In this document: one piece after another, positions 7,454 through 10,141 of the stretch
How positions within the stretch are numbered: the first letter of the stretch is position 1
How the letters are laid out: every line of letters starts with the position of its first letter
NCBI RefSeq assembly: GCF_024979315.1
Contig: NZ_JANLCK010000005.1
Location: 1 to 64,000 of the forward strand
DNA: 64,000 nucleotides
Direction: 5' to 3'
Origin: Herbiconiux oxytropis
GTDB lineage: Bacteria; Actinomycetota; Actinomycetes; Actinomycetales; Microbacteriaceae
Program-made: the position numbers and the translations under genes
Notes under the pieces: generated by a model
The model's database searches: none
What the model was told of the DNA's origin: nothing
Seen by the model: only the letters and a program-made list of their open reading frames with translations

Positions 7454-7924
7454 TCAGTCGTCCTCGTCGGCCACGAGGCTCTGCACGATGAGATCGAGCA
7501 CGGCCTCCGCGTAGGCGTCGACGGCGCTCTCGGCCTCGAACCGGCGCGGCCGGCCGCGGATCAGAGCGGTCACGACATAGAGCGTGACGTGATCCTCGCC
7601 CGGCTCCCCCGGGAGCTGTTCCGCGGTCAGCGAACGGAAGCCTTCGCGCAGGATCTCGCGCAGCTGATCTTCACGCGGGAGCCACAGCGTGTCGGTGAGG
7701 TCGACCGAGTCGAGCGCCCACTCCGTGGTGCCGTTGAAGCCGATCAGCGTGCCGGAGGGGAACTCGTGCACCTCGGCCGTCATCTCGCTCACGGTGAACA
7801 CCTCGCCCGCGGCGCCCGACTCGCTCGCACGCTCGACGGTCTCGATCACGAAGGCGTCACCCGAGCGCGGATGCCAGCGCAGGCCCGCTGTGCGGAGTGC
7901 CCTGGCGAGTTCGACGGCGATCAT
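7454..7924 (-). CDS. conserved actinobacterial protein, CpaE-like by name
   Basis: 156 residues from ATG at 7924 (MIAVELARALRTAGLRWHP). The middle reads FNGTTEWALDSVD followed by LWLPREDQLREIL, a pattern I know from a Microbacteriaceae family often labelled pilus assembly protein CpaE without real support. No membrane segment, signal peptide or P-loop is visible. The frame is open 41 codons further upstream, but that part is antisense to spacer and reads as low complexity. GATGAT sits 6 nt before the ATG. Function unknown. Confidence 0.75.
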   Translation of the reverse strand: MIAVELARALRTAGLRWHPRSGDAFVIETVERASESGAAGEVFTVSEMTAEVHEFPSGTLIGFNGTTEWALDSVDLTDTLWLPREDQLREILREGFRSLTAEQLPGEPGEDHVTLYVVTALIRGRPRRFEAESAVDAYAEAVLDLIVQSLVADEDD

Positions 7925-7930
7925 CTGCCC

Positions 7931-7936
7931 ATCATC
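7931..7936 (-). promoter_or_regulatory. -10-like GATGAT, leaderless start
   Basis: GATGAT on the minus strand ends exactly 6 nt before the ATG at 7924, keeping A at position 2 and T at position 6 of the hexamer. A weaker match than its counterparts elsewhere in the window. Confidence 0.35.
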
Positions 7937-7981
7937 CCAGCGATCGGCGGACGCGCCGACGCGGAATCCGGGATCGCCCGC

Positions 7982-7987
7982 TAACGT
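7982..7987 (+). promoter_or_regulatory. -10-like TAACGT upstream of the amine oxidase
   Basis: TAACGT fits TAnnnT and would place a start site near 7994, giving a leader of about 47 nt. The leader holds a tandem pair of CCCCGATCG at about 8009-8028. No good ribosome binding site precedes the GTG at 8041. Confidence 0.3.
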
Positions 7988-8040
7988 GGAGGTGATCGGC
8001 CTCCCCGATCGTCCCCGATCGAGAGACGGCACCGCAGACA

Positions 8041-9501
8041 GTGGCAATCGCGCGACGCACCTTCCTGGCGGGGGCCGTCTCGGCCCTCTCGCTCTCGGCG
8101 CTCGCGGCCTGCACCCCCGATGCCCCGCGCCCGGTGCCCTCCCCCTCGATCACCCCGACCGAGCTGCCGACTGGCCCCGTGCCGAACCCCGCCGCCTTCG
8201 CGCGGAGCGCCTGGGCCGACGACCCGTTCTCGCTCGGCTCCTTCAGCACCACTCCCGTGGGAGCCACCCCGGCGTCGCGCACGACGCTCCGGGACACCGT
8301 GGGCGACCGCCTGTTCTTCGCCGGCGAGGCGACCTCGACCGAGTTCCCGGGCACGGTCGTGGGCGCAGCCGCCTCCGGTGAGTCAGTCGCCGCCCGGGTG
8401 GCGGCGGTGGCCGAGCCCGAGGAGCGCATCGGCATCGTCGGAGCCGGCCTCGCCGGGGCGACGGCGGCACGGATCCTGGCCGAGCAGGGCTTCGAGGTGG
8501 TCGTGATCGAGGCGCGGGACCGCGTAGGTGGGCGCATCGACACGCGAGACGACGACGGCTGGCCGTTCCCGGTGGAGCTGGGCTCGGCATCCGTCTCTGC
8601 CGACGGGCTCGAGGAGCTGCTGCGCATCAACGACGTGGGCACGATCACGCTCGATGCCACCCTCGAGGCGCGCACCGCCTCTGGACTCGTCGTGCCGCCG
8701 AGCGCGGTGGGTCCGGATGCGGTGGCGCGGGCGGTGGCCTGGGCCAAGGCGCAGCCGACCGACACCTCGCTCGCCTCGGCCCTCTCGGCGTCGGGCGCCG
8801 AGATGCTGCCCCCCGAGCCGGGCGCCCAGGGCGTGTCGCCCGCCGACGAGCTCGTGCACTATCTCGAGACCACGGTGGCGAGCCGCTACGGCTCGAGCCC
8901 GTTCGAGCTCTCGGCGAGCTACGGGCTCGACCGCACGGGCCTCGTCGACGGCACCGCCCTCGTGGTGGGAGGCCTCGACACCGTGGTGACCGCCTCGCTC
9001 GACGACGTCGACGTGCTGCTCTCGAGCACCGTCATCCGGATCTCCTACAACGACGCGGGCGCAAGCGTGCGCCTGGGCACGGGCGAGTCGCTCTCGATGG
9101 ACCGCGTGGTGGTGACGGTGCCGATAGGGGTGCTGAAGGCAGGCACGATCGAGTTCTCTCCCGAACTGCCCGGGCCCACCGCGGCCGCCATCGAGGAGCT
9201 CGGCATGGGCTCGCTCGAGCAGCTCTGGCTGCGGTTCGACGAGCCGTTCTGGTCGACGGAGGCCACCGTGCTGTCGGTCTTCGACGAGACCTCCGAGATC
9301 GCGGAGTGGATCAACCTGCTGCCGGCTACCGGACAGCCGATCCTGATCGGTCTGACGGCTGCGGACGACGTTCCCGTGGTGCTGAAGCAGAACGATCAGG
9401 AGTTCCTGCAGGCGGCTCTGCAGACCCTCGAGCCGTACCTGGATCCCGCTCTGGTCTCGACACCCTCCCCCACGACGACGCCCACGGGCGGCGACGGCTG
9501 A
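8041..9501 (+). CDS. FAD-dependent amine oxidase, circularly permuted, Tat lipoprotein
   Basis: 486 residues from GTG. The N-terminus has a twin-arginine signal (ARRTFLAG, residues 4-11) ending in a lipobox, LAAC (21-24), so it is probably exported folded and lipid-anchored. Residues 51-123 hold the block that normally closes flavin amine oxidases: WADDPFSLGSFST, then RLFFAGEATS and PGTVVGAAASG. Only after it comes the Rossmann FAD motif GIVGAGLAGATAARIL (131-146) with EARDRVGGRI. The C-terminus stops at LEPYLDPA, just where that closing block should follow. This order is a circular permutation of the monoamine oxidase fold. It should oxidise an amine outside the membrane; substrate unknown. 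The last 176 nt overlap the antisense gene ending at 9326. Confidence 0.85.
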   Translation: MAIARRTFLAGAVSALSLSALAACTPDAPRPVPSPSITPTELPTGPVPNPAAFARSAWADDPFSLGSFSTTPVGATPASRTTLRDTVGDRLFFAGEATSTEFPGTVVGAAASGESVAARVAAVAEPEERIGIVGAGLAGATAARILAEQGFEVVVIEARDRVGGRIDTRDDDGWPFPVELGSASVSADGLEELLRINDVGTITLDATLEARTASGLVVPPSAVGPDAVARAVAWAKAQPTDTSLASALSASGAEMLPPEPGAQGVSPADELVHYLETTVASRYGSSPFELSASYGLDRTGLVDGTALVVGGLDTVVTASLDDVDVLLSSTVIRISYNDAGASVRLGTGESLSMDRVVVTVPIGVLKAGTIEFSPELPGPTAAAIEELGMGSLEQLWLRFDEPFWSTEATVLSVFDETSEIAEWINLLPATGQPILIGLTAADDVPVVLKQNDQEFLQAALQTLEPYLDPALVSTPSPTTTPTGGDG

Positions 9502-10141
9502 CCAGCACGAGCAGTGCCATCAGCCCGGAGAACAGGCCGAGCGCGATGCCCGAGTAGAGCGCGAACTCGAGCGGGCCGCTGACCTGGGCGGGATCGAGGA
9601 AGAAGTAGGGGTACCACCCGACCTCGGCACCGCGGATGAGGGTGAAGACTCCCCAGACCACGGGGAAGGCCAGCACGAAGGCGACCGTGCGCCAGCGCAG
9701 CCGCACCCGGCCCACGCCGATCAGCCAGTCGGCCACCACGAGCGGCGGCAGGTAGAAGTGCAGCACCTGGCTCGGCCAGGGCACGTCGATGCGGTAGTTG
9801 TGGCTGCCGGCCTGCGACACGATGAGGCCGAACACGATGCCGGAGACGACGACGTAGCAGATCGTCATCGCGCGCACGCTCACGAGGAACCGGCCGACGA
9901 CATGGTGCCGCAGGAGCAGCACACCGGAGGCCGCGAGCACCACGACGTTCAGCAGGTTGCTCTGGAACGTGAAGTAGCTGAAGTAGTTGACGGTGGAGAA
10001 CGTGCTGAACCCGAGCACGTAGTCGAAGTCGAACACCAGGGCCACGGCACCGATCGCGGCGATCGCGAGTCGGGCGATGCCCACAGCACGTCGCAACCCG
10101 GCTCCGATCTTTTCGTTCCTTTCGAGGGTAGTCGGTTCCAT
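9326..10141 (-). CDS. Pr6Pr-family membrane protein
   Basis: 271 residues from ATG at 10141 (MEPTTLERNEKIGAGLRR). Six hydrophobic helices follow, with FSYFTFQSNLLNVVVL, HNYRIDVPWPSQVLHFYLPP and GWYPYFFLDPAQ, the recognisable Pr6Pr (FAR-17a/AIG1-like) pattern. The fold is thought to relate to serine-type lipid hydrolases of eukaryotes; the bacterial role is unknown. The last 59 residues are arginine-, proline- and serine-rich and lie antisense to the amine oxidase 3' end, so the natural core probably ends near LLVLVSRRR. Only 31 bp separate its start from the divergent hydrolase, and no ribosome binding site is clear. Confidence 0.82.
   Translation of the reverse strand: MEPTTLERNEKIGAGLRRAVGIARLAIAAIGAVALVFDFDYVLGFSTFSTVNYFSYFTFQSNLLNVVVLAASGVLLLRHHVVGRFLVSVRAMTICYVVVSGIVFGLIVSQAGSHNYRIDVPWPSQVLHFYLPPLVVADWLIGVGRVRLRWRTVAFVLAFPVVWGVFTLIRGAEVGWYPYFFLDPAQVSGPLEFALYSGIALGLFSGLMALLVLVSRRRPWASSWGRVSRPERDPGTARGSAEPPAGTPDRSASAPRERRPQPSDRSGSAVR

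Follow-up and report, generated by a model that had tools for sequence, protein, structure and literature searches.

A circularly permuted flavin amine oxidoreductase-like protein with a Tat-type lipoprotein signal motif and a Pr6Pr neighbour in Microbacteriaceae

The window analysed here, 64,000 nucleotides of a Herbiconiux oxytropis contig, encodes at 8041-9501 a relative of the flavin amine oxidases in which the segment that ends the canonical enzymes precedes the FAD Rossmann motif. Sequence comparison strongly supports a segment order that is permuted, real and widespread. We consider it probable (roughly 0.75) that the product is a circularly permuted, Tat-exported, lipid-anchored FAD redox enzyme in which the amine-oxidase lysine has been replaced and whose likely partner is a Pr6Pr family membrane protein; its substrate handling and the partnership with Pr6Pr are the parts that we infer.

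Gene structure and inverted segment order

The gene is a single open frame on the forward strand with a GTG start and no internal stops. Its features and those of the neighbouring gene are as follows.

8041..9501, + strand: permuted flavin amine oxidoreductase-like protein, 486 aa, GTG start (ORF, Pfam and phmmer)
8041..8112, + strand: Tat-type signal and lipobox (RRTFL ... LAAC), residues 1-24, by motif
8113..8178, + strand: residues 25-46, a Pro/Thr-rich linker modelled with low confidence
8179..8409, + strand: moved block, residues 47-123 (W..DP..GS.S, FFAGEATS, PGTVVGA), in canonical relatives the C-terminal FAD-domain segment
8410..8424, + strand: junction where the old C-terminus runs into the old N-terminus, about 5 aa (in 91 ORFs, 1-7 aa separate the block models)
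8425..8595, + strand: FAD Rossmann segment with GxGxxG, E157 and GGR163-165 (Pfam match, alignment)
8596..9459, + strand: substrate domain and middle FAD-domain segment (Pfam, phmmer, structure alignment)
9220..9222, + strand: codon of Q394, the residue that aligns with K of SMOX and LSD2 and takes the position of the lysine near flavin N5
9460..9498, + strand: Thr/Pro-rich tail that ends the permuted chain, modelled with low confidence
9326..10141, - strand: Pr6Pr family membrane protein, tail-to-tail neighbour (NF038065, E 1.6e-35, 122.7 bits versus a cut-off of 30; the start at 10141 is our choice)

The sequence-only reading placed a GEATS-type block ahead of the Rossmann motif, and this is what homology searches recover. 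The stretches W58-F63, G66-T70, L91-S99 and P103-G108 all lie N-terminal of the Rossmann motif at G131. PF01593 aligns in three matching stretches (E 4.5e-53, 181.5 bits versus a curated cut-off of 19.8), and the order that characterizes this class, Rossmann segment first and GEAT block last, is not the order of the ORF. Against PDB sequences, phmmer paired query residues 126-168, 348-413 and 46-121 with residues 3-46, 264-330 and 404-480 of the spermine oxidase 7oxl, and the matched pieces of LSD2 came in the same inverted order, as had been predicted for a search that treats the pieces separately. The moved block has its own i-Evalue against 7oxl (1.6e-07, 177,635 PDB sequences searched), and since each block is individually significant, a chance motif match was rejected. 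When the family profile was searched against the PDB, the best stretch of each of the best 60 of 143 matches fell in the Rossmann-to-substrate part, and in none did it extend in line into the moved block.

By sequence, the segment that is last in the canonical FAD domain stands ahead of the first and is connected to it by a short linker. The two FAD-domain segments are thus contiguous and the chain end lies in the substrate domain; their placement in three dimensions is predicted by modelling. Across the alignments and clades examined, the cut site falls between the last substrate-domain helix and the W..DP strand. Comparison with six near copies gave dN/dS values of 0.14-0.46, consistent with a gene under selection. 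A scan for sigma-70 promoters found none; a single terminator-like site was seen, within the Pr6Pr gene and on the minus strand.

Predicted structure

AlphaFold2, run with 34 aligned rows, returned one confident fold (pLDDT 86.0, pTM 0.82), in which 43 residues have a pLDDT below 50. Block means of pLDDT over residues 51-120 are 83-96, and the moved block is modelled as strand, strand, helix, strand and helix leading directly into the first Rossmann strand. By a rough estimate, the pTM would hardly exceed about 0.78 if the place of the moved block were also undefined. The top Foldseek match was LSD2 (E 2.3e-21), and VIA-align superposed the model on LSD1 with Z 25.8 and an rmsd of 2.3 over 331 residues (model range 127-473). 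Both aligners presumably keep chain order and would then skip a permuted segment, in keeping with the position of the moved block outside the structure alignments. The predicted contact between this block and FAD, which the sequence-only reading expected, is favoured by homology and by the confident model; it counts against it that the best structural matches leave the block uncovered.

Distribution and stability of the permuted order

The scan of the genome collection retrieved 48 loci, of which 34 (L001-L034) are relatives over most of the protein and 14 match around the Rossmann motif alone. The 34 belong to genera that we take to be Microbacteriaceae, except one 'Corynebacterium-like bacterium'; this placement is shown for the rows in the trees. 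Thirty-three further complete relatives have the same segment order. In all of them, as in the window protein, the chain stops where the block would follow, extended at most by a short tail that is often rich in Thr and Pro. The remaining gene (L031) is cut by a contig end and was excluded from alignment A1, which holds the window protein and 33 rows (34 in total).

Permuted matches were found in at least 100 of the 299 genomes of a Microbacteriaceae sample, with E-values from 7e-205 to 6e-85 among the matches listed. All but one of these 100 span nearly the whole profile (the match in G221 covers 1-308 only); canonical enzymes in the family sample match at about 131-466, with a best E of 1e-60. 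Outside the family, permuted (1e-61 to 1e-145) and canonical (up to 3e-67) scores overlap, and segment order was therefore read gene by gene. Permuted genes were detected in four genomes of an order sample of 396 that lie outside the family, in 10 of a class sample of 394 outside the order and in four of a phylum sample of 396 outside the class; these samples overlap one another and include Microbacteriaceae members. The permuted order was confirmed in all 18 genomes. The arrangement is thus stable among homologues, and together with the segment order read from the sequence this recurrence upholds the interpretation as a circular permutation.

Models of the moved, Rossmann and middle blocks were built from A1 and used to classify ORFs by block order, giving 91 permuted and 30 canonical ORFs and no mixed ones (82 and 26 after removal of identical cores). 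One permuted relative (L122, in G635) has a moved block without its W..DP..GS.S first part and is either degenerate or cut further back. In a Microbacteriaceae lineage of small genomes (L090-L094; 1.3-1.8 Mb, one of 2.5 Mb; 77-93% complete), the permuted gene and the lysine are kept, and no Pr6Pr gene was found in the 0.3-2 kb of downstream flank covered. In Pseudomonadota, two of 148 genomes matched at E 1e-40, both with canonical genes, a cut-off that weaker permuted copies would escape. Six genomes reached through L035-L038, L041 and L046 gave no match at 1e-30, an empty answer that carries no weight.

Export signal

The N-terminus was earlier described as a Tat lipoprotein signal, and the twin arginine, the hydrophobic stretch and the lipobox cysteine that would make up such a signal are all present. 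R5, R6 and C24 are invariant in the 34 rows of A1. The combined twin-arginine and lipobox pattern occurs in all 59 distinct main-clade Microbacteriaceae proteins and in 71 of the 82 distinct permuted proteins overall; among canonical proteins it occurs in three of 26, and the twin arginine, alone or with a lipobox, in seven of 26. These motifs suggest that the protein would be exported folded by the Tat system and anchored to lipid at Cys24.

In clade C, six of the eight rows have a twin-arginine signal and no lipobox. Four permuted proteins from two other families (L086-L089) show no convincing export signal, keep the lysine and are probably cytoplasmic. Permutation and lipid anchoring are therefore separable. 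Canonical Tat-type flavin amine oxidases (for example L101, L116 and L119) share with the window protein the twin-arginine signal and the same homologous blocks but, unlike it, have the Rossmann block first and the counterpart of the moved block last. By eye, the N-terminus of the canonical Haloarcula protein L139 also resembles a twin-arginine signal.

FAD-binding residues and the missing lysine

Residue counts were made over 43 permuted and 26 canonical rows picked for diversity. The FAD shell is nearly invariant: GxGxxG, GGR and G95 are present in 69 of 69 rows, E157 in 68 and E96 in 67. With the members of PF01593 (LSD1/LSD2, spermine and polyamine oxidase, MAO), the window protein shares the FAD Rossmann motif, E157, GGR, the GEAT block and the fold of the aligned part; it differs from them in segment order, in the glutamine at the lysine position and in its export signal with a lipobox.

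The lysine near flavin N5, which we take to serve oxidation in classical amine oxidases, is replaced by Q394. It is present in all 26 canonical rows and in 19 of the 21 permuted rows outside the main clade (the other two have R), and it is absent from 18 of the 22 main-clade Microbacteriaceae rows, the window protein included. The replacements are varied (S, R, Q, T, V, L and N). All four main-clade rows that keep the lysine have a Pr6Pr neighbour, so lysine loss and Pr6Pr pairing are not one event. Given this loss, the name 'amine oxidase' used in the sequence-only reading is doubtful and should be held back. The position of F102, presumably that of the aromatic cage, is variable; it is rarely aromatic in canonical rows too and therefore decides little on amine oxidation.

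Linkage to Pr6Pr

The Pr6Pr gene lies on the opposite strand at the tail of the permuted gene in 93 of 100 genomes, with aligned ends -49 to 1034 bp apart. In the window, the two frames overlap at their 3' ends by 176 bp (9326-9501). Of the seven genomes without adjacency, two (G176 and G206) have contig ends within 350 bp of the gene, one (G044) has its Pr6Pr match on another contig, 67 bases from its start, and four (G289, G219, G038 and G251) belong to a reduced-genome lineage. From the other side, 92 of the 93 strongest Pr6Pr matches (E < 1e-40) are adjacent to a permuted gene, the exception being that of G044. Locus by locus, Pr6Pr was found beside 66 of the 68 main-clade loci read (counting distinct genes, 57 of 59). 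It was missed at L025, where the flanks are present, and at L031, where the contig ends inside the gene.

In the flanks of the other permuted loci (0.3-3 kb downstream covered), Pr6Pr was found in none of 23, and the flavoprotein can therefore exist without it. No Pr6Pr gene was seen beside the canonical genes that were fetched. Weaker paralogues of Pr6Pr occur widely (a match at 1e-8 in 253 of 299 genomes), and in at least seven genomes a second, weaker Pr6Pr lies within 3 kb of the flavoprotein (G191:C106, G076:C1, G102:C4, G025:C2, G212:C7, G139:C3 and G277:C135). Genes arranged tail to tail do not form an operon, and their conserved adjacency does not prove that they function together.

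Pr6Pr is the sole neighbour conserved across many genera. The aldo/keto reductase, DUF1295, MerR, FHA and alpha/beta hydrolase genes and the 7454-8047 protein were rejected as partners, being found mainly at Herbiconiux loci; the few matches elsewhere are an aldo/keto reductase at L018 and L089 and an MFS protein at L018. The 7454-8047 gene (- strand) lies upstream, on the strand opposite to the flavoprotein, has no Pfam or NCBIfam match and is conserved beside it only in Herbiconiux-type loci. In clades A and C, no shared neighbour matched two or more other loci, clade C being covered in part (L109 and L113 were referenced to the wrong ORF). In the outer part of the main group, neighbour sequences are shared only among L090, L091 and L094.

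Fold and candidate function of Pr6Pr

We know of no function for Pr6Pr (NF038065), and no paper naming the family was found in the literature searched. Across 36 aligned rows, neither T58 nor H128 varies; in a wider set, in which some rows are incomplete, the threonine is present in 64 of 67 and the histidine in 65 of 67. The model (pLDDT 88.2, pTM 0.86) predicts a bundle of about six long helices. Its best VIA match was TMEM164 (Z 13.0, rmsd 3.7, 185 aligned residues, 10% identity; next row Z 8.7), although for helical bundles a Z below about 13 may mean little. Foldseek ranked TMEM164 31st (E 0.79) and gave nothing at E < 0.001. A search of PDB sequences with the Pr6Pr profile returned a single match (E 1.9). 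When the 36 members were scanned against Pfam, TMEM164 matched one member (E 0.31), and the AIG1 family was not among the best 25 of 32 families.

ADTRP has six predicted transmembrane helices and the active residues T47 and H131 (PMC8123165), AIG1 uses T43 and H134 (PMC8123165), both enzymes have an active-site threonine (PMC11139994) and TMEM164 takes arachidonate from PC and passes it to lyso ether PE (PMC10474074). With its conserved T58 and H128 and its predicted bundle of about six helices, Pr6Pr resembles the AIG1/ADTRP threonine hydrolases; on the other side stand the lack of a useful sequence match in Pfam and the identity of 10% to TMEM164. The T/H pair, the TMEM164-like model and the chemistry of ADTRP, AIG1 and TMEM164 together point to a lipid hydrolase or acyltransferase, which we put forward as a reasoned lead and not as a result.

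Origin of the permutation

Trees were built from sequences rearranged to the canonical order, with 69 rows in the first and 74 in the second, from which the canonical L097 (a long branch) and its neighbour L133 were left out and to which seven canonical rows were added. Permuted proteins fall in several groups. That of the window protein, with rows of families f1, f35, f37, f80 and f121, had support of 99/98 in the first tree and 87/97 in the second. The 69-row tree requires four changes of order; well-supported branches force at least two of these, a result in favour of repeated events or of a reversal. The 74-row tree requires three, only one of them forced, with low support at the deepest fork (14/82). 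A single permuted clade was not rejected by the AU test on either tree (p 0.185 and 0.258). Within Actinomycetota, this permutation may have more than one origin. Most simply, the permutation would have come first, and the lysine would have been lost later and repeatedly.

Duplication or fusion had been suggested as the route. In a non-exhaustive search among ORFs derived from profile hits, none carried the moved block twice; an intermediate with the block at both ends was accordingly set aside, and the suggested route was not borne out. A mobile-element origin was also rejected. Phages gave no match; 11 plasmid records matched, none covering 80%, and the two that were read are canonical. Three loci from a viral-contig collection (L143-L145) are all canonical-order amine oxidase genes.

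Proposed function and alternatives

With the FAD shell intact and the lysine replaced by glutamine, the chemistry is most likely other than classical amine oxidation, and at the outer face of the membrane the flavoprotein would carry out a different FAD-dependent reaction, either a dehydrogenation or an electron transfer. An ordinary exported amine oxidase, its segments merely reordered and oxidizing amines outside the cell, is a somewhat improbable alternative: the strong PF01593 match speaks for it, as does the retention of the lysine by the Cryobacterium rows and by most permuted rows outside the main clade, but this protein has Q394 and most of the main clade lacks the lysine. It is a little less likely still that the protein is a catalytically dead FAD binder with a structural, sensory or chaperone role. 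The many residues that replace the lysine and the poorly conserved substrate domain would fit such a role, whereas a nearly invariant FAD shell and a WLRFDEPFW core strongly conserved in A1 argue against it.

Two further readings concern the permutation itself. In a domain-swapped dimer, the moved block would complete the FAD site of the neighbouring subunit instead of that of its own chain; a junction of only 1-7 residues and the confident fold of the monomer model make this improbable. Nothing was found that speaks for swapping, although a monomer model would not reveal it. That the order reflects an assembly error, a frameshift or a fusion of two genes in one genome has a negligible chance of being true, since its recurrence in the family sample and in 18 genomes outside the family refutes an artefact.

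For a circularly permuted, exported FAD redox enzyme, Pr6Pr would be the likely partner, and we tentatively suggest that it acts on acyl esters of lipids or of the wall, as a hydrolase or an acyltransferase, and that its substrate or its product is handled by the flavoprotein. On an equally tentative, broader view, the lineage would have given up amine oxidation to serve at the outer face as the redox half of a two-gene membrane system, of which Pr6Pr would be the other half, a bacterial AIG1/TMEM164-like acyl hydrolase or acyltransferase, the two forming a hitherto unrecognized lipid- or envelope-modifying pair of Microbacteriaceae with a permutation of perhaps more than one origin.

Significance

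The lysine loss and the conserved Pr6Pr neighbour go beyond the sequence-only reading. No title on a permuted amine, monoamine or polyamine oxidase appeared among the literature matches listed, from a search that had most subscription papers outside its range. The permuted domains described in PMC11334425 are FMN-bind domains only. As a natural permutation across a multi-segment FAD domain, the present case implies that the widely studied monoamine oxidase/LSD1 fold would tolerate being cut anew at the point where the chain passes back out of the substrate domain into the FAD domain. The permuted order is relevant to enzyme engineering and to annotation that presumes domain order, and the tight link to the flavoprotein is a concrete handle on the role of this uncharacterized Pr6Pr group.
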